Origin: Methylotenera oryzisoli
GTDB taxonomy: Bacteria > Pseudomonadota > Gammaproteobacteria > Burkholderiales > Methylophilaceae
Direction of reading: 5' to 3'
Length of the DNA stretch: 49,903 bases
Assembly: GCA_945881735.1 (NCBI GenBank)
Contig: CAMCVF010000013.1
Location: 1 to 49,903, forward strand
Positions 3,888-33,263 of this stretch are shown one piece after another. Made by a program: the position numbers and the translations under genes. Positions within the stretch are counted from its first letter, which is position 1; each line of letters starts with the position of its first letter. The notes below the pieces were generated by a model that ran no database searches, had not been told where the DNA came from, and saw nothing but the letters and a program-made list of their open reading frames with translations.

Positions 3888-4255
3888 TTATCTGATTACA
3901 CTTGTCACCTGATTGTGTCCAATATTGTTGGCTTTATACAAGTGCTTATTGGCGCTCACAAACAATTGATCTAAATTTTTAACCAAAGCATTTGTCAAAC
4001 CCATACTGCCGGTGTTGTGCAACAAATGCTCTTTTGCGCAAATCTTTTGATTAGCAACGGCCAACCAAAGTCATTGTGATCAATGTTATTAGCATAAAAG
4101 GCCGCTTGGCTGAGTAACGCAAACTCTTACCCGCCAACTCTCGCCACCAAAACATCGGCAAAATTCGCTTCTAGCAAGCCAGAAAAGTTTTTAATGACTT
4201 TATCTCACACATCGTGACCATGTCTATTGTTTTTGCTCTTACATATCTTTGCTGC
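3888..4255 (-). pseudogene. Decayed diguanylate cyclase (GGDEF) C-terminal domain
   Basis: This gap holds the fossil of a GGDEF domain on the minus strand. Near 4211-4250 the reading resembles the FKxIND-GHD block (CKSKNNRHGHDV); a TGA follows, then DKVIKNFSGLLEANFADVLVARVGG and a TAA exactly where the aspartate of GGDEF should be, followed by EFALLS. After a frameshift the C-terminal helix is recognisable (LDQLFVSANKHLYKANNIGHNQV), ending at a TAA (3888-3890). At least two in-frame stops and one frame change mean no functional cyclase can be made. The N-terminal sensor part is missing. The remains end 2 bp from the envZ stop. Confidence 0.8.
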
Positions 4256-4302
4256 TTTTATACCGGCTTATTTAATTCTCTTATCTACAGATCGATATAA
4301 AA

Positions 4303-5685
4303 TTAGACACTAAACCAATTTAATTTTTCGCGCAACTGCACAACTTCACCGATAATCGTCAAACAGGGTGGCTTCATCTCTGCCAACGACACTTTTTCGG
4401 CCAAATCCGCCAAGGTGGCGGTAACCACCTTTTGGCGTTGCGTGGTACCTTGTTGCACCACTGCCGCTGGCATGGTTGCCGCAACACCATGTTCAATTAA
4501 CTTCTCGCAAATTTCTTTTAGGCCCACCAAGCCCATGTAAATCACCACGGTTTGACGCGGGCGCGACATAGCTACCCAGTCCAAATCCAAGGTACCATCT
4601 TTTAAGTGGCCTGTAATAAAAAAGCAAGCTTGCGCATAGTCGCGGTGCGTTAATGGAATACCTGCATAGCTAGAAACACCATTGGCGGCGGTAATACCGG
4701 GCACTACTTGAAACGGAACTCCGTACTGCATAAGCGTTTCAATCTCCTCACCACCACGCCCAAATATAAACGGATCACCACCCTTTAAGCGCAGTACACG
4801 CTTACCTTGCAAGGCTAGTTTGGCTAATAAATCACTGATTTCTCCTTGTGGCATAGTGTGCTGATTGCGAGATTTACCTACATATATCAATTCAGCATCT
4901 CGGCGGACCAATTCCATCACTTCTGGACTCACCAACTTATCGTACACACATACATCACACTGCTGCATCAAGCGTAACGCGCGGAATGTGAGTAAATCTG
5001 GGTCACCAGGGCCACCGCCCACTAAAAATACTTCGCCCTGATTTTTGGTGACATCAGCATCGTTAATTAAATTAGCTAATTGTTCGCGTGCGGCATGCTC
5101 TTGGCCAGATAAAACGCGCTCTACAAAAGAACCTTGCAATATGCCTTCCCAAAAAATGCGCCTGGCTTGAGTGGTGGCAAACTTGGCTTTAACTTGGTCA
5201 CGAAACTCTCCGGCAATATCCGCGATACGGCCATAAGTGGCTGGCAACATAGTCTCAATTTTGGCGCGAATATAGCGCGCCAAGACTGGCGCATTGCCTT
5301 CGGATGATATTGCAATTACTATCGGGCTACGGTCAATAATACTGCCCATGGTAAACGTGCACAAATCGGGCGCATCCACCACATTAACAGGAATATTTTG
5401 CGCCTTTGCTGAAACGGACACAGCAACATTTACCGCCTCATCATCCGTCGCCGCAATCACCATACATGCACCTGTTAACTGATTCATTTCAAAATTACTG
5501 GCGATATATTTAATTGTTTCAGCTTCTGCCATTGCTAATAATTCAGGACAAATATCAGGTGAATACAAAGTAATCGCCGCGCCGGCTTTCAGCAACATGC
5601 TGACTTTACGTGTAGCCACATCGCCGCCGCCAATAACCACACAATGGCGATTTTTGATGTTGAAAAAGATTGGGAGTGCTTGCAT
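4303..5685 (-). CDS. cysG: Siroheme synthase (uroporphyrinogen-III C-methyltransferase / precorrin-2 dehydrogenase / ferrochelatase)
   Basis: The 460-residue product is a complete CysG fusion (E. coli CysG is 457 residues). The N-terminal half (about 1-200) is the NAD-dependent precorrin-2 dehydrogenase/sirohydrochlorin ferrochelatase: VVIGGGDVATRKVSMLL is the nucleotide-binding loop and SSEGNAPVLARYIR follows. The C-terminal half (about 210-460) is the SAM-dependent uroporphyrinogen-III methyltransferase with VFLVGGGPGDPDLLT, RLKGGDPFIFGRGGEE and GITAANG. The enzyme makes siroheme for sulfite and nitrite reductases in the cytoplasm. Start set at ATG 5685, matching E. coli CysG, which begins just before LPIF; an in-frame TTG at 5700 would add MSYFF. 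No sulfur-assimilation genes lie nearby. Confidence 0.95.
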   Translation of the reverse strand: MQALPIFFNIKNRHCVVIGGGDVATRKVSMLLKAGAAITLYSPDICPELLAMAEAETIKYIASNFEMNQLTGACMVIAATDDEAVNVAVSVSAKAQNIPVNVVDAPDLCTFTMGSIIDRSPIVIAISSEGNAPVLARYIRAKIETMLPATYGRIADIAGEFRDQVKAKFATTQARRIFWEGILQGSFVERVLSGQEHAAREQLANLINDADVTKNQGEVFLVGGGPGDPDLLTFRALRLMQQCDVCVYDKLVSPEVMELVRRDAELIYVGKSRNQHTMPQGEISDLLAKLALQGKRVLRLKGGDPFIFGRGGEEIETLMQYGVPFQVVPGITAANGVSSYAGIPLTHRDYAQACFFITGHLKDGTLDLDWVAMSRPRQTVVIYMGLVGLKEICEKLIEHGVAATMPAAVVQQGTTQRQKVVTATLADLAEKVSLAEMKPPCLTIIGEVVQLREKLNWFSV

Positions 5686-6010
5686 AAAAAAATAACTCAA
5701 CTAAATGTTTTATTATTTTACTCTAGTTGCAAGTTGGTTTTTTAATAATCAAGTTGGCTTTTAGCAATTAGATATGAGGTTTATAGCCAATAAAAATTAC
5801 ATTTAACAAATAATATTAATGGTACGTAGCGTGCAAAACTACCTATTCTTTAATAAGAATTTAACACTAGCTTTTATCGATCTAATTTTCTGTGTCGCGT
5901 AACACAGCGTTTTTCAACTAGCATTAAATCCGTCATTAAACCCATTCATTTTGTCTAGTTTTAAAAATTATTGAATGCTCAGCACTATCACATCCTGCAG
6001 ACGCTTGTTT
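5686..6010. other. AT-rich gap without a recognisable gene
   Basis: About 325 bp of AT-rich sequence between cysG and the oxygenase remnant, containing the cysG upstream region. No reading frame with recognisable protein character and no convincing promoter or terminator is seen. If the oxygenase gene was once complete, its missing C-terminal part would have lain here, but only random-looking translation remains. Confidence 0.5.
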
Positions 6011-6244
6011 CTAGCTGCCAAATTCCAATGCTTCCTGATATTCTGAAAAAGAATGATAGGTATTGTTAGCAAAATCTTCAGTTAAAAAATCATCAATGCA
6101 AAAATGTAAAAAAGGCCGATTAATAACAATTTCTTTGTTGACTTGTTCTAAGTGAACTAAATCTTTGTGCACCATCTGATATGCCTTATTTAACTGATAA
6201 AAATGGCATGGATTTGACTTTTTTATGCTTTTTATTAATTTCAA
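6011..6244 (-). pseudogene. N-terminal stub of a 2-oxoglutarate/Fe(II) oxygenase-like protein
   Basis: A 77-codon frame from a TTG, without a clear Shine-Dalgarno. Its second half, NRPFLHFCIDDFLTEDFAN followed by NTYHSFSEYQEALEFGS, matches the characteristic opening of bacterial 2OG-Fe(II) oxygenases of the prolyl-hydroxylase-like type (PFPHxVIDDFLxxxxA...FPS). The frame stops immediately after EFGS, where the intact family continues for well over a hundred residues including the HxD...H iron-binding triad, none of which is present. It is therefore most likely a truncated, nonfunctional remnant. Family recognition is by eye; a small real protein is a less likely alternative. Confidence 0.6.
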
Positions 6245-6381
6245 ATCAAGCTTCTCACAAACAAGACAAATAGTTAAAAGTAATTAGCAACCATCAACGC
6301 AACATAGCTCTTTCCAAATGCGTTAAAATCTTAGGTTAACTTTCAGTTCGACATAAGCACATTTAAAACAAGAAGGTAAGA

Positions 6382-7722
6382 TTGGTTAAAGCAAAAAAAG
6401 TCTTCATAAAAACTTTCGGCTGCCAGATGAACGAATACGATTCATCGCGCATGGCGGATATGCTGAATGCCGATAGCGGCATGGTTGAAACTAAAACAGT
6501 TGAAGACGCTGATGTAATTTTGCTGAACACCTGCAGCGTGCGCGAAAAATCTGAAGATAAGGTATTTAGCCATCTGGGACGTTTTATTCCGCTTAAAGCG
6601 AAAAATCCCAATTTAGTGATCGGCGTTGGCGGTTGCGTGGCTTCGCAAGAAGGAGATAACATCATCAAGCGCGCACCTTATGTCAATGTGGTATTCGGCC
6701 CGCAAACAATGCATCGCTTGCCTGAGATGATTAAAAATTCACAGTCATCAGGTGTTTCACAAGTCGATATTTCTTTCCCTGAGATTGAAAAATTTGATCA
6801 TTTACCACCGCCACATGTGGAAGCTGTGACAGCCTTTTTAAGCATCATGGAAGGTTGTAGCAAATATTGCAGCTTTTGCGTGGTGCCATATACACGCGGC
6901 GAGGAAGTATCGCGCCCGTTTGATGCGATTTTACTGGAAGCTGTGCAACTAGCGGAACAAGGCGTTAAAGAAATCACCCTGCTCGGTCAAAACGTTAATG
7001 CGTATCGCGCAGCATACGAGGGTGTTGAAGCCGATTTGGCGATGCTCATTGAAACGATTGCCGAAATTTCGCAAATTGAGCGCATCCGTTTTACCACTAG
7101 CCACCCAAATGAAATGAATCAACGCTTGATTGATTGCTTTGCCAATGTGCCCAAACTGGCAATTCAATTGCATCTACCAGTACAAGCAGGTTCTGACCGT
7201 ATTCTGATAGCGATGAAACGTAACTACACTGCGCTGCAATACAAATCGATTATCCGCAAATTAAAAACGGCTAATCCAAATCTGACATTTACCTCTGATT
7301 TCATTGTGGGCTTTCCTGGTGAAACCGAAACCGATTTTGAGGCGACATCTAAACTGATGCAAGACGTTGGTTTTGATTACAGTTTTAGCTTTTTATATAG
7401 CCCGCGTCCTGGTACACCCGCCGCGTTTATTAAAGATGATACGCCGCATGACATTAAATTGGCGCGTCTAACTAAGCTGCAAGCTATCAATGAAGCTCAA
7501 GGAGATGCCATCAGCCGAAATATGTTAGGCAGCATTCAGCGTGTGCTGATTGATGGCGCATCGCATAAATATGCCGACTTACTGGCAGGAAAGACCGATA
7601 ATAACCGTGTGGTAGATATTGCAGGCAGTGATGATTTAATTAACACATTTGTGAACGTTAAAATTACCGATGTATCAAATCCAAAAAGATTACAAGGCCA
7701 GATAGTAGAAAAGACTGTTTAA
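6382..7722 (+). CDS. miaB: tRNA-2-methylthio-N6-dimethylallyladenosine synthase
   Basis: A 446-residue radical-SAM methylthiotransferase that converts i6A37 to ms2i6A37 in tRNAs reading UNN codons. The N-terminal UPF0004 domain binds an auxiliary [4Fe-4S] cluster through C14 (TFGCQMN), C51 (LNTCSVRE) and C85 (VGGCVASQ). The radical-SAM cluster uses the CX3CX2C cysteines C159, C163 and C166 in [19 protein letters not shown]-terminal TRAM domain covers about 380-443. The TTG start at 6382 is supported by a good Shine-Dalgarno (GAAGG at 6372-6376). It heads the miaB-phoH-ybeY-corC-lnt string; phoH starts 3 bp after the stop. Confidence 0.96.
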
Positions 7723-7725
7723 TTA

Positions 7726-8670
7726 ATGGAAATCACACTACAACCAGAAGACAACGCCCGACTAGCTAACCTTTGCGGCGCGCTAGATGAAAACATCAAA
7801 CAAATTGAAACCGCGCTTGAGGTGAATATCAATCGCCGTGGTGGTACGTTTAATATTAGTGGGAAATTGGACAACACTAGGATGGCGGCACAGATGATTG
7901 AAAACTTTTATTTACGCGCCAGAAAACCACTTGAACTTGAAGACGTGCAGTTAGGTTTGGTGGAAATTGATAAATTAAAGCCAGAGGATGTTTCCAGTGC
8001 CGCCATGCCCGCTTTAATGACGCGGCGTGGTGATTTGCATGGCCGTACCCCACGTCAGATTTCGTATTTACAGCAAATTCAAGATCACGATATTACGTTT
8101 GGTATTGGCCCAGCTGGTACGGGTAAAACCTATTTAGCCGTTGCCAGTGCAGTGGATGCCATGACGCGCGACCGTGTAAAACGCATTGTTTTGGTTCGCC
8201 CAGCAGTAGAGGCGGGCGAAAAATTAGGCTTTTTGCCAGGCGATTTAAACCAAAAAGTCGATCCTTATTTACGCCCTCTTTACGACGCGCTATATGACTT
8301 AGCCGGCTATGACACGGTGAATAAAATGTTTGAACGCGGCGCTATTGAAGTTGCGCCATTGGCTTATATGCGTGGCAGAACACTGAACCAAAGCTTTATT
8401 ATTTTGGATGAAGCGCAAAACACCACGCCGGAGCAAATGAAAATGTTTTTAACCCGTATTGGCTTTGGGACCAAAGCCGTGATTACAGGTGATGTGACGC
8501 AGATTGATTTACAGAAACATCAAAAGAGCGGCTTGGTGGAAGCGCAAAAGATATTAAAAGACGTTAAAGGGATTGCCATGACGAACTTTCTATCGGCAGA
8601 TGTAGTGCGCCATCCATTGGTGCAGAAAATCATCAATGCATATGAAGAATATGAGCTTAAAAAAGTTTAA
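7726..8670 (+). CDS. ybeZ: PhoH-family ATPase (YbeZ)
   Basis: A 314-residue cytoplasmic P-loop ATPase. The N-terminal KH-like region (about 1-95) precedes the PhoH domain with Walker A GPAGTGKT (128-135) and Walker B ILDEAQN (D228/E229). YbeZ is a putative RNA helicase/ATPase that works with the endoribonuclease YbeY in ribosome maturation and RNA processing. The gene starts 3 bp after miaB, so translation is probably coupled. In most relatives ybeY follows at once; here fba, tpiA and fbp intervene, so YbeZ and YbeY cannot share a simple transcript. The last codons and the stop sit in a long hairpin (8647-8680). Confidence 0.93.
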   Translation: MEITLQPEDNARLANLCGALDENIKQIETALEVNINRRGGTFNISGKLDNTRMAAQMIENFYLRARKPLELEDVQLGLVEIDKLKPEDVSSAAMPALMTRRGDLHGRTPRQISYLQQIQDHDITFGIGPAGTGKTYLAVASAVDAMTRDRVKRIVLVRPAVEAGEKLGFLPGDLNQKVDPYLRPLYDALYDLAGYDTVNKMFERGAIEVAPLAYMRGRTLNQSFIILDEAQNTTPEQMKMFLTRIGFGTKAVITGDVTQIDLQKHQKSGLVEAQKILKDVKGIAMTNFLSADVVRHPLVQKIINAYEEYELKKV

Positions 8671-8680
8671 GCTCATATTC
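8647..8680 (+). terminator. Perfect 15-bp hairpin containing the phoH stop codon
   Basis: Bases 8647-8661 and 8666-8680 are perfect inverted complements around the 4-nt loop AAAG; the phoH stop TAA (8668-8670) lies in the right arm. There is no T-tract after the stem, so it is not a textbook intrinsic terminator. It could protect the mRNA 3' end, assist Rho-dependent ending, or affect release at the stop. Confidence 0.5.
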
Positions 8681-8815
8681 AATCTCTAACGCTATTCGTA
8701 GCAATTTCAGCTTCATCATCATCGTGATGTGGGCAAGAAAAGCCTGTAGTAGCTGGTTTTTATCTCTCAATCTATACTTTTATTATGTCTTATAGATATA
8801 GGTGTTACATTACAA

Positions 8816-8884
8816 CTTAATCACACAAACAAAATGTGTGTGATTAAGTAGCTCCCAACAATATTGCGCACAAAATGCGCACAA
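8816..8884 (+). promoter_or_regulatory. Inverted repeat plus helically phased direct repeats upstream of fba
   Basis: Two elements lie 30-100 bp before fba. Bases 8816-8827 and 8837-8848 form a perfect 12-bp inverted repeat (CTTAATCACACA) with a 9-nt spacer, the geometry of a dimeric regulator operator or a transcript hairpin. The 9-mer TGCGCACAA then occurs twice, at 8865-8873 and 8876-8884, exactly 11 bp apart, about one helical turn. No good -35/-10 pair could be assigned. The regulator is unknown. Confidence 0.45.
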
Positions 8885-8916
8885 TCACTTAACCTTTAAA
8901 ACCGATAGAGGACAAC

Positions 8917-9996
8917 ATGGCACTGGTCTCATTACGTCAGTTATTAGATCACGCAGCAGAACACGATTACGGTATTGCCGCTTTTAACGTCAATAATATG
9001 GAGCAAGTACATGCTATTATGCAGGCGGCCGATGCGACCAACAGCCCAGTCATTTTACAAGGCTCTGCGGGGGCGCGCCAATATGCAGGTGAGGCTTTTT
9101 TAAGGCATTTAGTATTAGCCGCAATTGAGTCTTACCCACATATTCCTGTTGTGATGCATCAAGATCACGGGCACACGCCAGCAGTTTGTATTCAAGCCAT
9201 GCGCTCTGGCTTTTCTAGCGTGATGATGGATGGCTCATTAATGGAAGATGCTAAAACGCCATCTAGCTTCGAATACAATGTGGAGGTCACCCGAAAAATC
9301 ACTGAATTCGCACACGCCATCGGTGTATCCGTTGAAGGTGAACTAGGTGTTTTAGGCTCACTGGAAACTGGTATGGCTGGAGATGAAGATGGCTCGGGCG
9401 CTGAAGGTATATTGGATCATTCACAATTATTGACCGACCCCGAAGAGGCGGCAGACTTTGTGGATAAAACAGGTGTAGACGCGTTAGCGATTGCGATTGG
9501 CACATCACACGGCGCATACAAATTCACCAAGCCGCCCACTGGAAAAACATTAGCCATTAACCGTATTAAAGAGATTCATTCGCGCATTCCCAATACGCAT
9601 TTAGTCATGCATGGCTCATCATCAGTACCGCAAGAATGGCTAAAAATTATTAACGCCTATGGCGGTGATATGGGTGAAACCTATGGTGTGCCTGTAGAAG
9701 AAATTGTTGAAGGCATTAAATATGGCGTGCGAAAGGTGAATATCGATACCGATTTACGCATGGCATCCAGCGGTGCAATTCGGCAATTTTTTGAGCAACA
9801 CAAAAAAGAATTCGACCCCAGAAAGTTTTTAACCGCTGCGACAGTTGCCATGAAAGATATTTGTATTGCGCGTTACGAGGCGTTTGGTTCAGCAGGACAT
9901 GCTAACAATATCAAACCGATTTCTTGTGAAAAAATGGCAGAACGCTACAAAAAAAGCCAGCTAAACGCAATCGTGAGAAGCGGGAATGCCAAATGA
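8917..9996 (+). CDS. fba: Class II fructose-1,6-bisphosphate aldolase
   Basis: The 359-residue product is a zinc-dependent class II aldolase of the long (FbaA/CbbA 'Calvin cycle') subtype. It interconverts fructose-1,6-bisphosphate with dihydroxyacetone phosphate and glyceraldehyde-3-phosphate. Metal-site motifs are visible: [35 protein letters not shown] and [10 protein letters not shown]. In RuMP methylotrophs this step feeds gluconeogenesis and carbon rearrangement. A strong Shine-Dalgarno (AGAGGA) precedes the ATG. The stop overlaps the tpiA start (ATGA), which implies an fba-tpiA operon. The pair sits inside the phoH-ybeY neighbourhood, an uncommon location. Confidence 0.95.
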
Positions 9997-10778: not shown

Positions 10779-10839
10779 ATTAATTTTGTTGTCAATCGTA
10801 ATTCCCGCGTGGGAGAGAATGTCGAAACAAAGTTATTGT

Positions 10840-11835: not shown

Positions 11836-11878
11836 CGTTTAATTATATAATCTAAATAGTTTATCCTCATGACAAATC

Positions 11879-12316: not shown

Positions 12317-12325
12317 GACGCCTTA

Positions 12326-15864: not shown

Positions 15865-15960
15865 TAAGTCTGAAACTTTAATCTCATCAAAAGTCTATGC
15901 CAAATTGCTTTTGTTGAGTAAAGGCTTATTTGCTTTGAGGGTGATTGCACAAACGGTTAG

Positions 15961-16257
15961 CTCAGAATAATCAAATCGGCGCGCGAGTTAGAAATTGTTT
16001 TAATTATTGGCGTACAGGCAGGTGAAACAAGTTTACTCACGCGCTTTGGATTAACTGCCGCCAAAGTTGCATCCGATATGCAGGTCGCCTAAGAAGGCGT
16101 TTTTCGCACACATTTGTTAGAAAACGATATCTATGAATCGCCGTTGATGTTTGGTAAAACAGGTTTACTTGATGCAGCAAACAATATCTTCCTGACTCAA
16201 CCCAACTTAGGTTTTGCTTTTCAAGAAAAACTTCCTTCTATATCCGCGTTATTTTGA
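15961..16257 (+). pseudogene. Unidentified decayed reading frame with an internal stop
   Basis: The gap between lnt and glyQ contains a frame with protein-like composition from 15961 to a TGA at 16255-16257, broken by one TAA at 16090-16092. It has no start codon with a ribosome site and begins right after another stop, so the 5' end is missing. The text before the stop (ETSLLTRFGLTAAKVASDMQ) and after it (EGVFRTHLLENDIYESPLMF, then GKTGLLDAANNIFLTQPNLG) reads like one continuous domain. I do not recognise the family. It is best taken as a gene remnant. Confidence 0.5.
16086..16104 (+). terminator. Possible short intrinsic terminator
   Basis: CGCCT (16086-16090), loop AAGA, AGGCG (16095-16099), then five T. 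The 5-bp stem is short and sits inside the decayed reading frame, including its internal stop. It may end lnt read-through or be fortuitous. Confidence 0.35.
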
Positions 16258-16338
16258 TAGCACCAACATGAATTAGCCATAAAGTTTCATGCTGTTTTGA
16301 GGTAAAATCATATCTTTAGTACAATCCTAAGCAATCAA

Positions 16339-21539: not shown

Positions 21540-21556
21540 TTTAGTAGCACCAATTT

Positions 21557-23425: not shown

Positions 23426-23449
23426 ATTTAGTCAACGCCCCCTTCTTTT

Positions 23450-24823
23450 GTGAGTTCCCATCTTCCGCAAGACGAAACCTTAAACCTACTTAAAACCGGC
23501 AAATTACAAGGTAGCGCCCGCCTTAAACTGCTGTGTGGTTTAACAGAATTTCCAGCCGAAATCTTCACACTAGCCGATACTTTAGAAATTCTGGACTTGT
23601 CTGGTAACGCACTTAATTCGCTACCAAATGATTTAGTTAAAATGCATAAACTGCGGATTTTGTTCTGCTCATCGAATCAATTTACAAATCTACCAGAAGC
23701 ACTGGGCAATTGCCAAAGTTTGAGTATGATTGGCTTTAAAGCCAATCAAATTAGTCATATTGCTGAATCTGCTATTCCAGCCCAAAAATTACGTTGGCTT
23801 ATTTTAACGGATAACGCACTCAGTAAATTGCCTGACTCTATTGGCGATTGCCAGCAGATGCAAAAACTGATGTTGGCTGGTAACCAACTAAGCACACTGC
23901 CAGAAACGCTAGCAAACTGCAAAAAACTTGAGCTACTGAGAATCTCGGCCAACCAACTTCAATCACTGCCTGAATGGTTATTTAGCCTGCCTAAACTCAG
24001 CTGGCTGACTTATGCGGGCAACCCATTTAGTGATGAGATTGAACATAAACGCACCGCCCAACAGCCTATCACCCAAATTGACTGGACTGACTTACAGCTA
24101 CAGCAAAAACTAGGTGAAGGCTCATCTGGTTTAATTTACAAGGCAATTTGGAAAAAGGATGTCCAACCAAACAAATTAGTTGCAGTCAAAATTTTCAAGG
24201 CCGATTATACCAGTGACGGATTACCTCGTTGTGAAGTGCATGCAACAGCTTTGGCTGGTCAACAAAGAAATTTATTGGGCTTAGAAGGCATTATTAGTCA
24301 TCATCCACAACTTGCGCAAGGCATGGTAATGCCATTAATGGATGCGGATTTAACCGTGCTTGCAAAGCCGCCCAACTTTGAATCTTGTAGCCGTGATGTT
24401 TACGCCTCCAATACCGGATTTAGCTTGGAGAGCCTGTTAACTATCGCGTCCTACATTGCCTCAGTGGTTTGTCACTTGCATGAGCAAGGCATAACGCATG
24501 GCGATTTATATGCGCACAATATACTCTCCAATCAAAATGACAAGGTGATATTAAGTGATTTTGGCGGCGCATCGTTTTTGCCAATGGATAATATTGAGCA
24601 ATCTCTTAATCTGCAACGCATTGAATCGCATGCTTTTTCTTGTTTACTTGAAGAGTTATTAAATCATTGTGAAGCTCATAATGAAATCAAAGAGCAATGC
24701 TGGGCGCTTCAAGCAGAGTGCGCGCAAGCAAATATTGCCAAAAGACCCTTATTTAAAACGATTGAAAATCAATTAAACGGCCTAAAACAAATGCATTATA
24801 GGCAAGACACTAAAAGTGTTTAA
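23450..24823 (+). CDS. Leucine-rich-repeat / protein kinase-like fusion protein
   Basis: A 457-residue, probably cytoplasmic protein in two parts. Residues about 30-190 form six or seven leucine-rich repeats of the LxxLxLxxNxLxxLPxxL type (LEILDLSGNALNSLPNDLV, LSKLPDSIGDCQQMQ, LSTLPETLANCKKLELL). Residues about 215-457 form a protein kinase-like domain: glycine loop GEGSSG (from 222), lysine K247 (VAVKIF), catalytic loop H350-GDLYAHN and metal motif D370-FG. HGD replaces the usual HRD, a form seen in several bacterial kinases; D352 and N357 remain, so activity is plausible. The GTG start lacks a clear Shine-Dalgarno. Its 3' end overlaps convergent murI by 14 bp. Substrate unknown. Confidence 0.85.
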   Translation: MSSHLPQDETLNLLKTGKLQGSARLKLLCGLTEFPAEIFTLADTLEILDLSGNALNSLPNDLVKMHKLRILFCSSNQFTNLPEALGNCQSLSMIGFKANQISHIAESAIPAQKLRWLILTDNALSKLPDSIGDCQQMQKLMLAGNQLSTLPETLANCKKLELLRISANQLQSLPEWLFSLPKLSWLTYAGNPFSDEIEHKRTAQQPITQIDWTDLQLQQKLGEGSSGLIYKAIWKKDVQPNKLVAVKIFKADYTSDGLPRCEVHATALAGQQRNLLGLEGIISHHPQLAQGMVMPLMDADLTVLAKPPNFESCSRDVYASNTGFSLESLLTIASYIASVVCHLHEQGITHGDLYAHNILSNQNDKVILSDFGGASFLPMDNIEQSLNLQRIESHAFSCLLEELLNHCEAHNEIKEQCWALQAECAQANIAKRPLFKTIENQLNGLKQMHYRQDTKSV

Positions 24824-25655: not shown

Positions 25656-25704
25656 CGAAAAAGGATTGGATGATTTATAATGCTTGGATTATATAGGATT
25701 TTAA

Positions 25705-26256: not shown

Positions 26257-26261
26257 GCGAA

Positions 26262-27677
26262 ATGATTAAAAGATTCCTGCAAAAAGTGTTTAGTAAAAAA
26301 ATCAAAGCCGCCGTTGCGATTAACCAAGCTGACAATTTAGACACCAACAAGGCTAAGAAAATCACAGCAAAAGCACATAAAATCGATAAAAGCTTAATCA
26401 GCCAAGCCGCACTTAAAACTTGTGATGGCTTACAAAAAGAGGGGTTTGAAGCGTTTATTGTAGGCGGTGCTGTGCGCGATTTACTGTTAAATTTTAAGCC
26501 AAAAGATTTTGACATCGCCACCAATGCCACGCCAGAAGAAGTGAATCGCATATTCCGACGCTCACGCATTATTGGTCGCCGCTTTCGTTTGGTGCATGTG
26601 CTGTGGGGTCAAGAGACAATTGAAGTATCAACCTTTCGCGGCCATCACGACTCTGTTTCTTCCGATTCTGCCGGTGCACAAACTGCCAGGGAAGGCGATG
26701 CTAAAACTAACGATAGCGGGCGTATTCTGCGTGACAATATTTTTGGCAGCGTTGAGGAAGATGCCGCACGTCGCGACTTTACTGCCAATGCCTTGTATTA
26801 CAACCCTGCCAACGAAGAAGTGCTGGACTTTCACAATGGCGTAGCCGATATCAAAGCAAACCTATTGCGCATGATTGGCGACCCACTGACGCGCTACCAG
26901 GAAGACCCAGTGCGCATGTTACGTGCTGTGCGTTTATCAGCAAAATTGGGCTTAAAAATCGATGATCCTACTCAATCGCCTATCGCCAAGAATGCCGATT
27001 TATTGCAAGACGTACCAGCTAGCCGTTTGTTTGACGAAATGTTGAAACTGTTTTTGTCAGGCCACGCCATCGAAAGTATCAATGTTTTACGTGCGCAGCA
27101 TTTGCATCATGGCTTGTTGCCTATGTTAGATGTAGTACTAGAGCAACCAATGGGTGAAAAATTCGTCATGCTGGCTCTTAAAAACACCGATGACCGTATT
27201 TTGGCAGGCAAATCAGCCAACCCCAGCTTTTTATTCGCCTGCCTGCTGTGGCGTGAAGTGTTAGCTGCATGGCAAACCTATCAAGATAAAGGCGAAAGCT
27301 TTATTCCTGCACTGCATATGGCGATGAATGAGGTAATTGCAACACAGGCCGAAAAATTAGCCATTCATAACCGCTTTACTTCCGCCATGAAAGAAATTTG
27401 GGGCTTACAGCCACGTTTTGAGCAGCGCGCAGGCAAGCGTCCTTTTGGTATTTTAGAGCATCCACGCTACCGCGCAGGCTATGATTTTTTACTATTGCGC
27501 TGTGATTCAGGCGAAATGGATGCTGAATTGGGCGCTTGGTGGACCACTTTTGCAGAAGCCAAACCAGACGAACGAACCAGCATGCTACTACCAGATACCA
27601 CACCAAAAAAACGTCGCAAACGTAGCCGTAAAAAACCAGGTACTACGGATAAATTGATTTTGGAATCGATTGATTAA
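26262..27677 (+). CDS. pcnB: Poly(A) polymerase I
   Basis: A 471-residue class II nucleotidyltransferase that adds 3' poly(A) tails to RNA and promotes decay. The catalytic site is GGAVRDLLL with the acidic pair D82 and D84 (KDFDIATNATPEEV), followed by RIIGRRFRLVHV, RRDFTANALYY and QEDPVRMLRAVR. The basic C-terminus (KKRRKRSRKKPGTT) is typical of PcnB and binds RNA; together with the N-terminal basic extension it argues against a CCA-adding enzyme. It overlaps folK by one base (TAATG), as in E. coli, where pcnB and folK are also adjacent. Confidence 0.95.
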   Translation: MIKRFLQKVFSKKIKAAVAINQADNLDTNKAKKITAKAHKIDKSLISQAALKTCDGLQKEGFEAFIVGGAVRDLLLNFKPKDFDIATNATPEEVNRIFRRSRIIGRRFRLVHVLWGQETIEVSTFRGHHDSVSSDSAGAQTAREGDAKTNDSGRILRDNIFGSVEEDAARRDFTANALYYNPANEEVLDFHNGVADIKANLLRMIGDPLTRYQEDPVRMLRAVRLSAKLGLKIDDPTQSPIAKNADLLQDVPASRLFDEMLKLFLSGHAIESINVLRAQHLHHGLLPMLDVVLEQPMGEKFVMLALKNTDDRILAGKSANPSFLFACLLWREVLAAWQTYQDKGESFIPALHMAMNEVIATQAEKLAIHNRFTSAMKEIWGLQPRFEQRAGKRPFGILEHPRYRAGYDFLLLRCDSGEMDAELGAWWTTFAEAKPDERTSMLLPDTTPKKRRKRSRKKPGTTDKLILESID

Positions 27678-28198
27678 TGCCTGAACTGTATAGCCATACA
27701 GCTTACATAGCATTGGGCAGCAACCTACAAGACCCTGTCATACAAGTAAAAAACGCGTTTACTCACCTAAACCAGTTATGTAAAACAAACTTGGTAAAAA
27801 CCTCGAGCTTATACGTCACCGAGCCTTTGGGTTATGACGCTGAACAATTAAAAACCATACCGGAATTTATTAACGCAGTGGCCGAAATAAGCACCGATTT
27901 AACCCCACTAGAGTTGCTAGAAGAGATATTAGGAATAGAAAATGAAGCTGGACGCGAACGTCCCTACGCTAATGCGCCGCGCATATTAGATTGCGATTTA
28001 TTACTATACGATGATGTGGTGATGAGTACTGAAAAACTAACGCTACCGCATCCACGCATGCATTTACGCAGTTTTGTGCTATTGCCTTTGGCTGAAATTG
28101 CACCAAAATTAAACTTACCAAATTTAAAATTGCCCGATGGTAGCAATGTTGTAGAATTCGTTAAAACTTACTTAAATCAAGGCATAAAAAAACTATAA
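27677..28198 (+). CDS. folK: 2-amino-4-hydroxy-6-hydroxymethyldihydropteridine pyrophosphokinase
   Basis: A 173-residue HPPK that transfers pyrophosphate from ATP to 6-hydroxymethyl-dihydropterin in folate synthesis. Motifs: AYIALGSNLQDP, SSLYVTEPLGY, EFINAVAEI, and the metal/ATP signature GRERPYANAPRILDCDLLLYDD followed by LTLPHPRMHLRSFVLLPL. In relatives panB and panC often follow folK; here a deoxynucleoside kinase gene comes first. Translation is coupled to pcnB by a one-base overlap. Confidence 0.95.
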   Translation: MPELYSHTAYIALGSNLQDPVIQVKNAFTHLNQLCKTNLVKTSSLYVTEPLGYDAEQLKTIPEFINAVAEISTDLTPLELLEEILGIENEAGRERPYANAPRILDCDLLLYDDVVMSTEKLTLPHPRMHLRSFVLLPLAEIAPKLNLPNLKLPDGSNVVEFVKTYLNQGIKKL

Positions 28199-28321
28199 AA
28201 CTCACGTCTTTAATTTAACAACACTAAATTAGACAAGGCGCGTGCTAAAAAATAGGACGACGCGTGGGAGTGATATGTTGGGAGAATTTTTTGAAGCAGC
28301 AACCTAGTCAAATGATGAAAT

Positions 28322-28981
28322 ATGAGTTTTAAAATGAGTATTTTTAATAAATTCCCTTATATCGTTGTCGAAGGCCCAATAGGCAGCGGCAAAACCACAT
28401 TAGCTAAATTGCTAGCAGATAAGTTTTCGGTGCAATTACTTAGTGAAAAGGCCGAGGACAATCCATTTTTACCGCGTTTTTATCAAGACGCGCAACGATA
28501 TGCACTGCCTACACAGCTTTTTTTCTTGTTTCAACGCTCACGCCAAATTGCCGATATGACACAGCGCGATTTATTTTCGGCGCCCACGGCGGCGGATTTT
28601 TTCTTGGAAAAAGACCCACTCTTTGCAAGACTGAATTTGGATGATGAAGAGTATGCCTTGTATCACCAAATTTACACCCATTTGCAATTAAAATCGCCTA
28701 AACCCGATTTAGTGATCTACCTGCAAACGCCCATTGATGAACTGGCAGAGCGCATTGAAGAGCGCAACATTAGCTACGAACAAGAAATTCCGCGTGAGTA
28801 TATTGAGCGCCTAGCAGATACTTATAGCGAGTTTTTTCACAGTTACGATACATCGCCTGTGTTAATTGTGAATAACGAAAAACTCAATGTAATTAAAGAT
28901 GAAAGCGCACTGAGTTTACTGGTGGATAGAATCATGCAAATTAAAAGTAGCCGTGAATATTTCAACCCAAATTTCGATTAA
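28322..28981 (+). CDS. Deoxynucleoside kinase (dGK/dCK family)
   Basis: A 219-residue P-loop kinase that phosphorylates deoxynucleosides (deoxyadenosine/deoxyguanosine type) in salvage. The P-loop is VEGPIGSGKTT (17-26); the substrate-site region has ADFFLEKDPLFARLNLD, and LQTPIDELAERIEERN plus EQEIPREYIERLADTYSEFF is the lid/Arg region. ATG 28334, four codons on, is an equally possible start because neither has a strong Shine-Dalgarno. It lies in the folK-panB interval, a common place for this gene in betaproteobacteria (from memory). Confidence 0.85.
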   Translation: MSFKMSIFNKFPYIVVEGPIGSGKTTLAKLLADKFSVQLLSEKAEDNPFLPRFYQDAQRYALPTQLFFLFQRSRQIADMTQRDLFSAPTAADFFLEKDPLFARLNLDDEEYALYHQIYTHLQLKSPKPDLVIYLQTPIDELAERIEERNISYEQEIPREYIERLADTYSEFFHSYDTSPVLIVNNEKLNVIKDESALSLLVDRIMQIKSSREYFNPNFD

Positions 28982-29131
28982 CTCACGCACCTAAAACAAT
29001 AGGCCATATAATCAGCCCACTGGCTCACATACATTTATCTAGCGATAAGCCATCCAAAATAAAAGTGATTTATTCAACATTATTAATATATTCATCGCAT
29101 ATTAATCAAACTATTGATCACTGCGGATTAA

Positions 29132-29374
29132 GTGTATTCTGGAATCACACGCTGTAAATTATGGCTGTTGTTGCCTCTCAATCACAACCGCATTAGGCTA
29201 GACACCAATAATAAAGAGGTATTCATTAATTCAGCGCCTCTGTCAACTGCGATTTGGTTATTTTCATCGGCCATTATGTTGTTTGGCTTTGCACGTCGCG
29301 GCACTCTTTTAACTCCCAACTATCAGGTCCTACGGCCATTATCCTTAGTTGCACTTTATGTACTTGTACGTTAG
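29132..29374 (+). pseudogene. Remnant ending in a PEP-CTERM-like sorting tail
   Basis: The 445-bp gap between the deoxynucleoside kinase gene and panB holds an open frame whose middle reads APLSTAIWLFSSAIMLFGFARR. This matches the layout of PEP-CTERM tails in methylotrophs (xPLPAAxWLFxSGLxGLxxxRR): a proline motif, a WLF-containing hydrophobic helix, then a basic cluster. In real PEP-CTERM proteins the chain ends a few residues later; here it runs on for 27 residues, and no protein body or signal peptide is found upstream. It is best seen as the eroded 3' end of a secreted-protein gene. The first 150 bp of the gap show nothing. Confidence 0.4.
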
Positions 29375-29426
29375 CGTTTCTAGTGGTCATGGCAATATCA
29401 AAACATTTTCGATGTAAAATATTGTT

Positions 29427-30239
29427 ATGTTGCTATCTCAATTAAACCAAAAAGTAAAAGCGGGCGAAAAATTGGCCATGCTCACCTGCTATGACGCTAC
29501 CTTTGCCAAACTAATGGAACAAGCACAGGTGGATATTTTATTGGTGGGTGATTCCTTAGGTATGGTGTTACACGGCGCTGAAAATACGCTCAATGTCAGT
29601 ATGCATCATATGTCTTATCACACAAAAAGCGTGGCTACAGGCGCACCAAACACTTTTATTATTGCTGACATGCCGCTGGGTAGCTATGAGCATGATGCCG
29701 AGGCTGCTTATAAAAACGCCGAGTGGTTGATTAAATCGGGCGCACATATGGTGAAGTTTGAAGGAGGCGGCGATAAAGCCAAAACAGCGCACTATTTGGT
29801 TGAGCGCGGCATTCCTGTTTGTGCGCATTTGGGCTTTACACCGCAATCGGTCAACCAGCTTGGTGGTTATAAAATTCAAGGCAAAACGGTTGAAGGTGCA
29901 GCAAAGATTATGCAAGACGCTATTTCCATGGCCAACGCTGGTGCCAGTTTTATTTTGTTGGAAATGGTTCCAGCCAGCTTAGCCAAAAGCATCACGGAAG
30001 AGCTAAACGTAGCCACTATAGGCATTGGCGCTGGTGTCGATTGCAGTGGCCAAGTGCTGGTGTTGCAAGATTTACTGGGCATTTATACTGGCCCAAGCGC
30101 TAAAAATCCAGCTGATTTTAAATCACCGCGTTTTGTGCGTAACTTTTTAATAGAATCCAATAGCGTGCAAGGTGCAGTCGCCGCTTATGTTGCTGCCGTT
30201 AAAAACAAAACATTTCCTGCGCTAGAACACAGCTATTAA
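29427..30239 (+). CDS. panB: 3-methyl-2-oxobutanoate hydroxymethyltransferase
   Basis: A 270-residue enzyme that makes ketopantoate from 2-oxoisovalerate and 5,10-methylene-tetrahydrofolate, the first step of pantothenate synthesis. Motifs: LTCYDATFAKLMEQAQVDILLVGDSLGMVLHG, MVKFEGG, AHLGFTPQSV and IGIGAGVDCSGQVLVLQDLLG. Metal-binding Asp residues are in place. A 428-bp gap separates it from panC, whereas the two are adjacent in most relatives; the gap holds a porin remnant. No good Shine-Dalgarno is seen. Confidence 0.95.
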   Translation: MLLSQLNQKVKAGEKLAMLTCYDATFAKLMEQAQVDILLVGDSLGMVLHGAENTLNVSMHHMSYHTKSVATGAPNTFIIADMPLGSYEHDAEAAYKNAEWLIKSGAHMVKFEGGGDKAKTAHYLVERGIPVCAHLGFTPQSVNQLGGYKIQGKTVEGAAKIMQDAISMANAGASFILLEMVPASLAKSITEELNVATIGIGAGVDCSGQVLVLQDLLGIYTGPSAKNPADFKSPRFVRNFLIESNSVQGAVAAYVAAVKNKTFPALEHSY

Positions 30240-30294
30240 AACCAAAGATGGCATTGCTATTTGTCTAGTCAAGTTTGGTTTTATAAATCAATTG

Positions 30295-30314
30295 AGTGGT
30301 TTTTATAAACCACT
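30295..30314 (+). terminator. Hairpin downstream of panB
   Basis: AGTGGTTT (30295-30302) pairs with AAACCACT (30307-30314) around TTAT. A second inverted repeat, AAAACCAAA (30238-30246) with TTTGGTTTT (30274-30282), overlaps the panB stop. Either could end panB transcription, but neither has a long T-tract. Confidence 0.4.
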
Positions 30315-30453
30315 TTCAACAAGTCTTAAATTACTAGCGCTACACAAATCATAGAGTTAGAAGATCCATCCAGATGGCTTGCATATTGCGCTAAATATTA
30401 CTTTACAAAATGATTAATGTTAGGAGCAAACACCGCATGCAACATCCACTTAA

Positions 30454-30585
30454 ATATGTTCAAAAGCGACTTATTTTATGAGCGGCTTTAACTTAGTAGA
30501 CAAAGAATGTTCAGCAAGACGTTTAGATGGAATGGCGGTTGGCCGCAGCCATCAGGTCACGGCAGGTATACGTTACTATTTTTAA
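30454..30585 (+). pseudogene. C-terminal remnant of an outer-membrane porin
   Basis: A frame open from 30454 ends at TAA 30583-30585 with RSHQVTAGIRYYF. The alternating pattern and a terminal Phe preceded by aromatic residues are the classic last beta-strand (BAM recognition signal) of Gram-negative porins; YFMSGFNLVDKE and LDGMAVGRSHQ upstream also read like a porin strand and loop. Only about 43 codons remain and an in-frame TAA at 30451 precedes them, so the gene is a fragment. The rest of the panB-panC gap shows nothing recognisable. Confidence 0.55.
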
Positions 30586-30667
30586 TAACATCATTAAATT
30601 TTGTTTTTTTATTGGTCAAAACCGATTAATCCAACGTTGGCATATGTTTGTGGTTTAAAATATTGCC

Positions 30668-31528
30668 ATGCAAATTATCAGCTTATCAAATGCATTATGC
30701 GCCGCCTTAAAAAAGCAAACCAATATTGGCTTTGTGCCGACAATGGGCAATTTACATGCTGGGCATATTCACTTGGTGAACCTTGCCAAGCAACATTCTG
30801 ATTGCGTAGTGGTGAGTATTTTTGTGAACCCGTTGCAATTTGGCGCGAATGAAGACTTGACCAATTATCCTCGTTCCTTGGAAGCCGATTGCGAAAAACT
30901 TAAAGCCGCAGGCTGTGATATTGTATTTACGCCTGCTGTGGCCGAAATCTATCCGCAATTCACGCAAAATAACGCAGGCATGAGCCTTAATCAAACCATA
31001 TTGATTCAGCCGTCTGCTATTGCTAACGATTTATGTGGTGCCAGCCGCCCTGGCCATTTTGCGGGCGTGGCAACAGTGGTAGCAAAGCTATTTAATATGG
31101 TGCAGCCGAAAAGTGCTTTCTTTGGGAAAAAAGATTTTCAACAATTATTTATCATTCGTGAATTAGTCAAACAGCTTAATTACCGGATTCAAATCATGGC
31201 GGGCGAAACCGTGCGCGAGGCGAGCGGTTTGGCGTTAAGTTCGCGCAATGATTATTTATCCGTCGCACAAAAACAGCAGGCAGCGGAATTAAACCAAGCT
31301 TTGCAAACGATTGCAGCTGAAATTAAAGTGCAAAATACTGAGTTTATAATGCTAGAAAACTCTGCCAAAGCCCAACTAAACGCAACGGGATGGCAGGTCG
31401 ATTACGTCACTGTGCGCTCTGCGCTGAGCCTACTGCCTGCCAGTCAAGCCGATAAGCATTTAGTGATATTAGCGGCGGCAAAAATGGGCAATACACGATT
31501 AATTGATAATATTGAATTATCACGCTAA
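30668..31528 (+). CDS. panC: Pantothenate synthetase
   Basis: A 286-residue enzyme that condenses pantoate and beta-alanine with ATP. The HIGH-like nucleotide motif is in FVPTMGNLHAGHIHLV, followed by VVVSIFVNPLQFGANEDLTNYPR, RPGHFAGVATVVAKLF, FGKKDFQQL and the KMSKS-like region SGLALSSRN. Length fits the family (about 283). panD follows after 83 bp with its own likely promoter. Confidence 0.96.
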   Translation: MQIISLSNALCAALKKQTNIGFVPTMGNLHAGHIHLVNLAKQHSDCVVVSIFVNPLQFGANEDLTNYPRSLEADCEKLKAAGCDIVFTPAVAEIYPQFTQNNAGMSLNQTILIQPSAIANDLCGASRPGHFAGVATVVAKLFNMVQPKSAFFGKKDFQQLFIIRELVKQLNYRIQIMAGETVREASGLALSSRNDYLSVAQKQQAAELNQALQTIAAEIKVQNTEFIMLENSAKAQLNATGWQVDYVTVRSALSLLPASQADKHLVILAAAKMGNTRLIDNIELSR

Positions 31529-31553
31529 CTTTCAGCCAATCACTCAAAGATTT

Positions 31554-31582
31554 TTGCGATAAGTCATTGAAAAGACTATAAT
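31554..31582 (+). promoter_or_regulatory. Sigma-70-type promoter for panD-rsfS-rlmH
   Basis: TTGCGA (31554-31559), a 17-bp spacer and a perfect TATAAT (31577-31582). It lies in the panC-panD gap, 30 bp before the panD ATG, so panD-rsfS-rlmH can be transcribed independently of panC. Confidence 0.65.
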
Positions 31583-31611
31583 ACGCCTCCATTTTGGAGA
31601 AACACCTATCC

Positions 31612-31992
31612 ATGCAAAGAACCATGCTTAAATCAAAACTGCATCGCGTACATGTCACTCATAGCGAGTTGCATTATGAAGGCAGTTGTGCGATTGATGA
31701 GGCGCTGCTGGAAGCCGCCAATATAAAAGAATACGAACAAATCAATATCTATAATGTGACTAATGGCGAACGCTTTAGCACCTATGCGATTCTTGCAGTC
31801 CGTCATTCTGGCATCATTTCGGTGAATGGCGCCGCTGCACACAAGGCACACCCAAAAGATATTATTATCATCGCCAGTTACGCGCACTACACAGCGGCCG
31901 AGTTGCAGCAATATGCCCCGCAGCTGGTGTATGTAGATGCAAATAACCGCATTACAAATCAATCAAACGCAATTACAGCACAGGCGGCATAA
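31612..31992 (+). CDS. panD: Aspartate 1-decarboxylase
   Basis: A 126-residue pyruvoyl enzyme making beta-alanine for PanC. The self-cleavage site is G24-S25 in YEGSCAID, where S25 becomes the pyruvoyl group; [12 protein letters not shown] and [22 protein letters not shown] are further family blocks. ATG 31612 gives the exact length and N-terminus of E. coli PanD (MxRTML); a TTG at 31594 overlaps the apparent Shine-Dalgarno GGAG. PanD processing normally needs PanZ (PanM) in enterics; that factor is not seen here. rsfS overlaps the stop by one base. Confidence 0.96.
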
Positions 31993-32366
31993 TGACAGCT
32001 CAAACAGAAGCGAATTACCTAGACACCATGAAACAGGCGGTAATTGACGCGTTAGAAGATATTAAAGGCTTTGATATTGCCGTGATGGATGTAAGGAAGC
32101 TCACCAATATGACCAGCTATATGATTGTTGCCAGCGCCACATCTAGCCGCCAAGCAAAAGCCATGGGCGACAATGTACGCGAAAAGTTAAAAGAAAAAGG
32201 CTACACCATACGCGGGACCGAAGGTGAAAAAGACGGCGAATGGGTGTTAGTGGATTTAAACGACATGGTTGTGCATATTATGATTCCCGCTACGCGCGCT
32301 TATTATAATTTAGAGCAACTATGGGGCGATGCAGAAGCGCGTCGCAGCCATATCAAACCTGCTTAG
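31992..32366 (+). CDS. rsfS: Ribosomal silencing factor
   Basis: A 124-residue RsfS/Iojap protein that binds L14 (uL14) of the 50S subunit and blocks subunit joining in starvation. Motifs: ALEDIKGFDIAVMDVRKLTNMTSYMIVASATSSRQAKAM, then GEKDGEWVLVDLNDMVVHIM and YYNLEQLWGD. It overlaps the panD stop (TAATG). In many proteobacteria the gene before rsfS is nadD; here panD takes that place. rlmH follows after 36 bp. Confidence 0.95.
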   Translation: MTAQTEANYLDTMKQAVIDALEDIKGFDIAVMDVRKLTNMTSYMIVASATSSRQAKAMGDNVREKLKEKGYTIRGTEGEKDGEWVLVDLNDMVVHIMIPATRAYYNLEQLWGDAEARRSHIKPA

Positions 32367-32402
32367 ATTTCAATTCAAACTTAAACTGTTGTAAATGCAA
32401 GC

Positions 32403-32882
32403 ATGAAACTGCGCATTATTTCAATTGGGCACAAAATGCCTAGCTGGGTAGAGACCGCATGCAGTGAATACACCAAGCGCATGCCGCGTGAAGCAATGGT
32501 TGAAATTGTCGAAATAAAACCCGAAAAGCGCGCGGCTGGAAATAGTACCGAAAACATCCAATTAATTGAAGCCAAACGTATTTTAGAAGCGGTTGGCAAC
32601 GATTATCTAATTGCCCTAGATGAACACGGCAATGAAGTAACTACTCTACAACTAGCTGAACGGTTCTCTGGCTGGCTGGCTGGCAACACAAGCTATGGCC
32701 GCGATATAGCTCTTGTCATTGGTGGTGCAGATGGCCTACATGGATCGGTCAAACAAAAAGCCGATTGGCTATGGGGCTTATCTAAACTAACCCTGCCACA
32801 TGCTATGGTCCGCATTATCTTAGTGGAACAGTTGTATCGCGCCTACTCCGTCACACAAAACCATCCTTATCATCGCGAATAA
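32403..32882 (+). CDS. rlmH: 23S rRNA (pseudouridine1915-N3)-methyltransferase
   Basis: A 159-residue SPOUT methyltransferase that methylates pseudouridine 1915 in helix 69 of 23S rRNA. The family start MKLRIISIGHKMPSWV, the SAM-binding knot VIGGADGLH and the C-terminal LTLPHAMVRIILVEQLYRAYSVTQNHPYHRE are all present, and length matches E. coli (155). rsfS-rlmH adjacency is widely conserved. A terminator follows. Confidence 0.96.
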   Translation: MKLRIISIGHKMPSWVETACSEYTKRMPREAMVEIVEIKPEKRAAGNSTENIQLIEAKRILEAVGNDYLIALDEHGNEVTTLQLAERFSGWLAGNTSYGRDIALVIGGADGLHGSVKQKADWLWGLSKLTLPHAMVRIILVEQLYRAYSVTQNHPYHRE

Positions 32883-32906
32883 TCGCTTATTAATGACTGG
32901 CAAGCT

Positions 32907-32945
32907 AAATGCCTTATATGCAATACAAGCACATAAGGCATTTTT
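32907..32945 (+). terminator. Intrinsic terminator after rlmH
   Basis: AAATGCCTTAT (32907-32917) pairs perfectly with ATAAGGCATTT (32933-32943) across a 15-nt loop, followed by more T. It lies 25 bp after the rlmH stop and should end the panD-rsfS-rlmH transcript. Confidence 0.75.
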
Positions 32946-32948
32946 ATT

Positions 32949-33263
32949 GCTACCCCCAAAAAAAGTGAAAAGCGCCTGTTTCGACCTCTTTTTGAGTCAA
33001 TATTTTCAGTGTCTGCCAGAATATTAATTGGCTCTGTGAACCCAGCTAAGTTAATTAAAGATAATGAAAATAGCGCTGAGGTTTTTCAGAAAGCTTTTGA
33101 ATTGGGCGATTAAGAACTGATTATGTTAGCGCTAGAAATGCAAACAATACTTGGATTACTGTCTAGTACCGCACCAACCACCAACACGGTAAAAGTAGCG
33201 CCTATAAAAACGGCAGCTCTAGAAGGGAAAAATACATGTTTGGCGCAAGAAGCTAGTCAATAA
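32949..33263 (+). pseudogene. Unidentified decayed reading frame with one internal stop
   Basis: Between rlmH and the photolyase gene a single frame runs from about 32949 to TAA 33261-33263 and is interrupted only by TAA at 33111-33113. Before the stop it reads SEKRLFRPLFESIFSVSARI and NPAKLIKDNENSAEVFQKAF; after it, LIMLALEMQTILGLLSSTAP and a tail LEGKNTCLAQEASQ. Length and composition suggest a protein of about 100 residues broken by one nonsense mutation, without a clear start codon. I do not recognise the family. The remaining 90 bp before the photolyase start show nothing. Confidence 0.45.

Follow-up and report, generated by a model that had tools for sequence, protein, structure and literature searches.

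What does decayed coding sequence in the long intergenic gaps of a bacterial contig say about the genome that carries it—is it a local curiosity, the debris of streamlining, or the trace of some other process? The question is raised by a stretch of 49,903 bp from Methylotenera oryzisoli (contig CAMCVF010000013.1, here C13; hereafter the window), for which an earlier note had claimed that nearly every gap over 300 bp contains a gene fossil and had read this as recent or ongoing genome streamlining. The source draft genome (G000; 2,024,118 bases in 34 contigs, 92.7% complete) was compared with 14 further members of the genus (G001-G014), among them the sister G008 and the relatives G007 and G012. 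We put at roughly 0.8 the probability that the fossils are part of a recent wave of gene loss, genome-wide in extent and due to relaxed constraint, on the branch of this one species, a wave that is absent from the three relatives screened alongside it. The best reading is that "recent reductive decay" describes the process more fittingly than "streamlining".

All six long gaps of the window are gene remnants

Six spacers of the window exceed 300 bp (3886-4302, 5701-6381, 15865-16338, 28982-29426, 30240-30667 and 32883-33352) when genes of at least 80 aa are counted and 43200-43541 is treated as a small gene that is intact. All six proved to be broken coding remnants, at the sites where the earlier note had placed them, and for each of them one or more other Methylotenera genomes keep an intact relative at the corresponding site. 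In a frame-tolerant alignment of gaps to proteins (12 pairs, with 20 dinucleotide shuffles per pair as control), 11 pairs score 92-301 against shuffle maxima of 31-41, far above what shuffled sequence yields. The gene order of the 50-kb window is kept in G007 and G012, save for inserted or missing genes. The genes beside the fossils are intact, as had been stated: no called window gene of at least 60 aa falls below 60% of the length of its orthologue. No RNA was found in the six gaps, Rfam at the gathering threshold giving two tRNAs in the window, both elsewhere. The region 43200-43541, one of the 30 raw clusters of the screen described below but not of the lesion-bearing 23, was rejected as a seventh fossil, its 113-aa frame being intact and free of lesions and the 182-aa frame of the relative being over-extended at the start.

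The decay extends across the sampled genome

A uniform decay screen covered 400 kb of G000 beyond the window together with the window itself (449,903 bp, ~22% of the genome) and collinear stretches of three relatives (G012, 380 kb; G007, 380 kb; G008, 340 kb, of which 36 kb are N), to which the stretches opposite the window were added to give screened totals of 440, 440 and 314 kb, respectively. Genes were called by a hexamer score, and the proteins of the other genomes were then searched against the DNA outside intact genes. The raw fossil clusters number 30 in G000 against 5 in G012, 4 in G007 and 2 in G008 (450, 440, 440 and 314 kb); 23 against 2, 2 and 1 carry at least one stop or frameshift (binomial p 2e-9), and 21 against 0, 1 and 0 carry at least two lesions (p 2e-11). 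The fossil density is 5.1 per 100 kb in G000 versus 0.3-0.5 in the three relatives. Three of the 23 lesion-bearing fossils lie in the window, 19 on contig C1 and one on contig C3, and beyond the window 20 fossils in 400 kb of G000 face 5 in 1,194 kb of the relatives (p 1e-8). Among spacers longer than 300 bp, 24 of 47 hold a fossil in G000 versus 4 of 65 in the three relatives (Fisher p 7e-8), or 26 of 39 versus 8 of 65 in a looser count that excludes C3. The wording "nearly every long gap" holds exactly within the window; for the sampled genome the share is about half to two thirds of the long spacers.

The screen is conservative for G000 because its C3 stretch (80 kb) was not paired with collinear stretches of the relatives, and because two of the window fossils, those of a 2-oxoglutarate (2OG)-Fe(II) oxygenase and of an MR_MLE enolase-superfamily protein, escape it, their relatives lying in other genomes. 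Clusters at 34860 and 316084 of C1 were rejected as fossils and stand outside the 23, since they have no lesions and look like uncalled intact genes. The cluster of phosphoenolpyruvate (PEP) carboxylase (L084:14896; C1 ~254,896) is 92% identical to the protein of the sister, with one frameshift inside the protein and a second mark before the probable start; it reflects either a lesion of very recent date or an error in the sequence, and we do not claim it as a firm fossil, although it is counted in the 23 and the 21. Beyond the window and without this cluster, 17 clusters with at least two lesions stand against one in the relatives.

A comparison of gene losses points the same way. Among 238 syntenic genes of at least 100 aa, common to G007 and G012 and with flanks present in G000 and G008 alike, 198 are retained in both of the latter, 24 are missing only in G000, none only in G008, and 16 are absent from both. 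Loss here means absence from the syntenic site, copies elsewhere having been sought for certain families only, including GGDEF, the TonB receptor and pyruvate kinase. Half of the losses private to G000 (12 of the 24) leave a fossil of the same family, and the firm ones number 22 versus 0 in G008 (p 5e-7).

Selection, mutation and the age of the fossils

In a codon model of 211 of the 213 one-to-one quartets (dropped were the paralogous quartet G000_C3|5 and one below 50% identity), omega (dN/dS) is 0.0756 on the G000 branch, 0.0694 in the sister, 0.0708 in G007 and 0.0553 in G012. The ratio of G000 to the sister is 1.07 (0.99-1.20 over 30 bootstraps), and the synonymous branch is 0.434 in G000 versus 0.334 in the sister, ~1.3 times faster (1.23-1.35). 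If purifying selection on the core has weakened at all in G000, it has done so only slightly, with a small rise of dN/dS possible. A clear relaxation of the core (2974 versus 1633 private amino-acid changes, omega ratio ~1.2, 2dlnL 32) was rejected as inflated by the paralogous quartet.

The fossils behave otherwise. Private changes at codon positions 1 and 2 reach 0.130 per site in 17 fossils versus 0.0425 in intact genes, ~3 times as many (the baseline is without the paralogous quartet; with it, 0.0465), and at position 3 they reach 0.338 versus 0.288. The average fossil (n=17) has been unconstrained over roughly the final third of the species branch or a shorter span, an age that assumes position 3 to be neutral and is shorter if the genes were weakly constrained beforehand. 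The recency of decay that the earlier note had suggested is borne out by this non-coding-like evolution; the fossils are spread over the sampled genome. Private changes from G/C to A/T number 427 versus 323 in the reverse direction in fossils, and 6470 versus 6231 in intact genes; an A+T-biased mutation is therefore visible where selection is off. Loss of mismatch repair was rejected as the cause, MutS, the sole repair gene checked, being present at full length in G000. Internal repeats of at least 400 bp at 90% identity are represented by one in the 450 kb sampled, a count to be read with the fact that draft assemblies can lose repeats. This repeat is 526 bp long and occurs as two direct copies at 96% identity at L078:13297-14483 (C1:133297-134483).

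Relaxed constraint as the probable explanation, and its alternatives

Strict genome streamlining supposes that, in large pelagic populations, small and compact genomes are favoured by selection, which deletes genes and shortens spacers, and the Methylophilaceae are a known model of that process (Salcher et al. 2019, PMC6794327). The genome of G000 (2.02 Mb, 92.7% complete) is indeed below both of its nearest sisters in size (~2.5 Mb, 99%, and 2.3 Mb, 89%), two large families, GGDEF proteins and TonB receptors, are reduced, core dN/dS is little altered, and the unpaired median of positive fossil-free spacers is lowest in G000, at 56 bp versus 64, 88 and 66 in the relatives. When 124 orthologous spacers of G000 and G008 are paired, however, the mean difference is -0.5 bp (p 0.44). 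The spacers of both genomes are shorter than those of G007 and G012, a shortening that is older than the decay burst because G008 shares it. The GC content of the sampled stretches, 0.423 versus 0.430, 0.424 and 0.435, is equal to or only slightly lower than that of the relatives, and pseudogenes are plentiful, whereas the part of the family study that bears on streamlined oligotrophs credits them with few (PMC6794327). With spacers no shorter than those of the sister and pseudogenes abundant, streamlining in the sense of selection for compactness, as the earlier note had it, does not hold up, and we regard it as unlikely. Decay driven by drift, with a small population and selection weak everywhere, is somewhat less likely still. 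Young insect endosymbionts such as the relatives of Sodalis have reportedly undergone recent mass pseudogene formation, with decay accompanying host restriction; the likeness to G000 lies in the mass of pseudogenes, and the difference in a core dN/dS that here stays close to that of the sister. Drift would account for the high pseudogene density, for the private protein changes (2623 in G000 versus 1617 in the sister, 1.6 times) and for the greater gains of FYMINK and losses of GARP amino acids on the G000 branch. Yet in a model that allows for multiple hits, most of the protein excess goes along with the 1.3-fold synonymous rate, and the scarcity of long repeats, the lack of any sign of insertion sequence expansion in the 450 kb sampled and the intact MutS also speak against it.

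Ordinary bacterial turnover, by which such fossils would lie in the long spacers of any genome, draws on the 5 fossils that the relatives hold in ~1.19 Mb and on several loci that are patchy in the genus; it has difficulty with the more than tenfold lower density of fossils in those same relatives and with losses of 24 versus 0 against the sister, and we consider it improbable, a little more so than drift. Least probable of all is that sequencing or assembly errors broke intact genes. The PEP carboxylase case, with its high identity and single internal frameshift, fits such errors, but 21 of the 23 fossils bear at least two lesions, 34 stops are spread over 30 clusters, of 43 frameshifts 16 are close to a run of at least four equal bases, and the rates at positions 1 and 2 are ~3 times those of intact genes.

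Several points weigh against relaxed constraint on a single branch. The whole-data omega test, which ignores differences between genes, gives 2dlnL 6.4 (p 0.012) toward a higher omega, and, without correction, private amino-acid changes relative to fourfold ones stand at 1.33 times the level in the sister (1.14-1.55); both of these would also suit drift. The C3 fossil (64035), one of the 23, has one stop and matches at 34% identity, the PEP carboxylase cluster is possibly a sequence error, and two of the 24 losses (G012_a|231 and G012_a|233) retain partial homologous matches in the interval. Truncation is the sole sign of decay in two of the six window fossils, the 2OG stub and the TonB tail. 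Because the MR_MLE and TonB genes are intact on site in a single relative each, they may be old insertions and not ancestral, and certain window loci were already patchy within the genus before their loss in G000. The uniform screen holds three relatives, the sample is ~450 kb (22%) of a genome 92.7% complete, and the species is represented by a single genome, so that fixation of the lesions cannot be shown.

Relaxed constraint nevertheless accounts best for these data. The genes behind the six gaps would have been whole in the ancestors and inactivated on the branch to this Methylotenera species, the remnants then being eroded through point mutations, small indels and large deletions. A change of niche most likely lifted selection on signalling, envelope, redox and peripheral metabolic genes; A+T-biased neutral mutation would then break and delete the unselected genes, with the core remaining under strong purifying selection. 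The sample is probably representative of the whole genome and the process probably still running. Two specific changes were considered and rejected: a shift in salinity, the proteome being slightly more basic and not more acidic (mean isoelectric point 7.04 in G000 versus 6.96 in the sister, 213 genes), and the loss of flagella as the driving change, there being no flagellin match in G000, G008, G014 or G012, and one in 5 of the 15 genus genomes.

What has been lost and what remains

The intact relatives of the fossil or lost genes include regulatory proteins (REC-GGDEF, CHASE2-adenylate/guanylate cyclase, cyclic-nucleotide-binding, FHA, PP2C, ECF-type sigma, LysR and FIST), envelope proteins (OmpA, secretin-like, TonB receptor and PEP-CTERM-like proteins), redox proteins (molybdopterin oxidoreductase, an Oxidored_molyb protein and an AhpC/TSA protein), and an isochorismatase, the MR_MLE protein, the 2OG oxygenase, a DMT-type transporter and an ABC transporter. 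Several of the 30 intact-relative proteins scanned have no Pfam family match. G000 has 9 GGDEF matches, 3 of them broken or partial, versus 19 in G008, 15 in G014, 17 in G012 and 18 in G007; its TonB receptors, all open, number 5 versus 13, 9, 22 and 19 in the same genomes. The 6 full GGDEF domains and 5 open receptors that are left contradict the claim that cyclic di-GMP signalling and outer-membrane transport are lost functions: cyclic di-GMP signalling is cut back, not abolished. As a separate observation, G013 (1.4 Mb, 87% complete) has no GGDEF match and 6 TonB receptor matches.

Nor are the losses merely accessory, as had been supposed. The only match to pyruvate kinase in G000 is a fossil (L084:18148-18682, or C1:258148-258682) that covers 181 of 475 residues with four frameshifts; no other match was found elsewhere in the genome. 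A full-length match is also lacking in G005, G006 and G010, and G011 has a partial one only. The pyruvate kinase step may be bypassed by 2-keto-3-deoxy-6-phosphogluconate (KDPG) aldolase.

Relation to other reduced genomes

That genome reduction occurs in Methylophilaceae is already known: sensing functions, transport and redundant pathways are described as dropping out step by step along a graded series of genomes of differing size (PMC6794327). That series, from the same family, compares gene content between genomes at different stages, whereas in G000 the genes are half-decayed and the spacers uncompacted relative to the sister. According to Ramachandran et al. (2021, PMC8262872), genome reduction is still under way in the Arctic Methylophilaceae clade BS01, which is related to Methylotenera and carries a napA pseudogene; the relevant part of that report names this one pseudogene, versus tens of remnants in G000, which also has no acidic-proteome shift. 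Groundwater Parcubacteria offer a paired comparison, with pseudogenes making up 9.4% of genes in the habitat-shifted lineage versus 4.9% in its counterpart (PMC11188291), but these are ultra-small genomes of the candidate phyla radiation for which the account suggests a symbiotic life, and G000 is a ~2-Mb methylotroph. In the Limnocylindraceae, freshwater Chloroflexota, free-living genome reduction after a change of habitat is ascribed to relaxed constraint (PMC13212565); the passages concerned stress the loss of base-excision-repair genes, and in G000 the one repair gene looked at is intact. Among the open-access papers listed on reduction, streamlining and pseudogenes in Methylotenera or Methylophilaceae, no title announces a Methylotenera rich in pseudogenes.

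Reduced genomes of free-living bacteria are mostly seen after the fact, and in theory the parts played by selection and by relaxed constraint are disputed. G000 would represent a species mid-way, with tens of datable remnants and with the genes still present in close relatives, so that the order of events—loss before compaction, with core selection little changed—becomes directly testable in a family that serves as a model of streamlining. We suggest tentatively, and with less than even confidence, that G000 exemplifies a pseudogene-rich phase in a free-living lineage, in which core selection is about unchanged and genes are lost first by relaxed selection, compaction following later. If this is true, such a phase would be the missing intermediate between sediment and streamlined pelagic Methylophilaceae.

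The window fossils and neighbouring genes

The first fossil, on the minus strand at 3894..4240, is the C-terminal 117 of 444 aa of a REC-GGDEF diguanylate cyclase, with 2 in-frame stops and 1 frameshift (score 296 versus a shuffle maximum of 41); the GGDEF search of G000 recovers it, with its stops, below the cut-off. The response-regulator GGDEF gene adjoining cysG is intact in G008, G009 and G012 (copies at L040:14408-15730, L043:4062-5396 and L049:13762-15069), and its start is visible in G010 and G006. It is missing in G007, G014, G011, G001 and G013, where the flank matches end 16-126 bp apart, and G005 has a different gene at the site. The tally of 5 genomes with the gene whole or begun, 6 without it and G000 with a fossil, which covers the genus save G002, G003 and G004, makes repeated independent loss across the genus likely. 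Also on the minus strand, at 6011..6259, lies the 2OG-Fe(II) oxygenase fossil, of which the N-terminal 53 of 274 aa align (6017-6175) free of lesions, the remainder being unrecognisable. In G010 and G006 an intact copy of the oxygenase gene (Pfam PF13640) lies between miaB and cysG. Both labels, GGDEF and 2OG oxygenase, are confirmed by alignment to intact relatives at the same site. Elsewhere the site holds an SRPBCC gene alone (G008 and G014) or an AMP-binding/acyltransferase protein (G001). The SRPBCC gene was rejected as the source of gap 5701-6381, which holds no remnant of it (score 31 versus a shuffle maximum of 32).

The four remaining fossils are on the plus strand. Two of them had been described as unknown frames, and their decay is upheld; both can now be named. 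One, at 15961..16257, is the C-terminal 98 of 388 aa (aligned 15961-16254), with 1 stop, of an MR_MLE enolase-superfamily protein. Its gene (Pfam PF13378) is intact directly upstream of glyQ in G001, is not at the glyQ site in G007, G012, G009, G008, G014 or G010, and has its protein present in 2 of 120 genomes of the family, G000 among them. A phage origin of this remnant was rejected, a single match at E 0.3 being all that was found. In G001 a GH3-family gene lies beside the MR_MLE gene upstream of glyQ (L160:1024-3829), the pair perhaps being a small metabolic cassette. The other, at 32997..33253, is a small uncharacterised protein, nearly full length (residues 12-97 of 97 aa, the first residues being unrecognisable), with 1 stop and 1 frameshift. 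The gene is intact between those of a SPOUT methyltransferase and a photolyase in G007, G012 and both sister metagenome-assembled genomes (L056 and L057); the protein has no Pfam family above the cut-off, and its G007 copy no NCBIfam match at E 0.001.

At 28996..29308 lie the last two thirds of a PEP-CTERM-like protein of 193-196 aa, with 1 stop, 1 frameshift and several deletions. Its gene is intact between a deoxynucleoside kinase gene and panB in G007, G012 and a sister metagenome-assembled genome (L056:9304-9885), and in L057 the same part of the protein aligns lesion-free. The remnant called a "PEP-CTERM-like tail" is thus real and its family label weak, PF07589 falling below the cut-off in the G007 homologue and the protein of the sister having no Pfam family at E 0.001. 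What had been taken for a porin C-terminus, at 30454..30585, is likewise a remnant, though of a TonB-dependent receptor and not of a porin: its C-terminal 41 of 740 aa align (30460-30582) without a lesion. The receptor gene is intact between panB and panC in G007 (L038:11023-13245) and missing there in G012. In 14 of 15 named loci a distance of 18-73 bp separates the ends of the matches to panB and panC, with no TonB receptor gene between them; in L070, the remaining locus, the match to panB breaks off early.

Two further genes of the window deserve mention. The NhaA-type Na+/H+ antiporter at 37887-39266 is without a match by blastp in the 27 other loci used for comparison and is perhaps a recent gain in a shrinking genome. 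At 23450-24823, leucine-rich repeats are fused to a protein kinase domain, an architecture that is unusual for a bacterium and that has matches in 3 of the 27 other loci.

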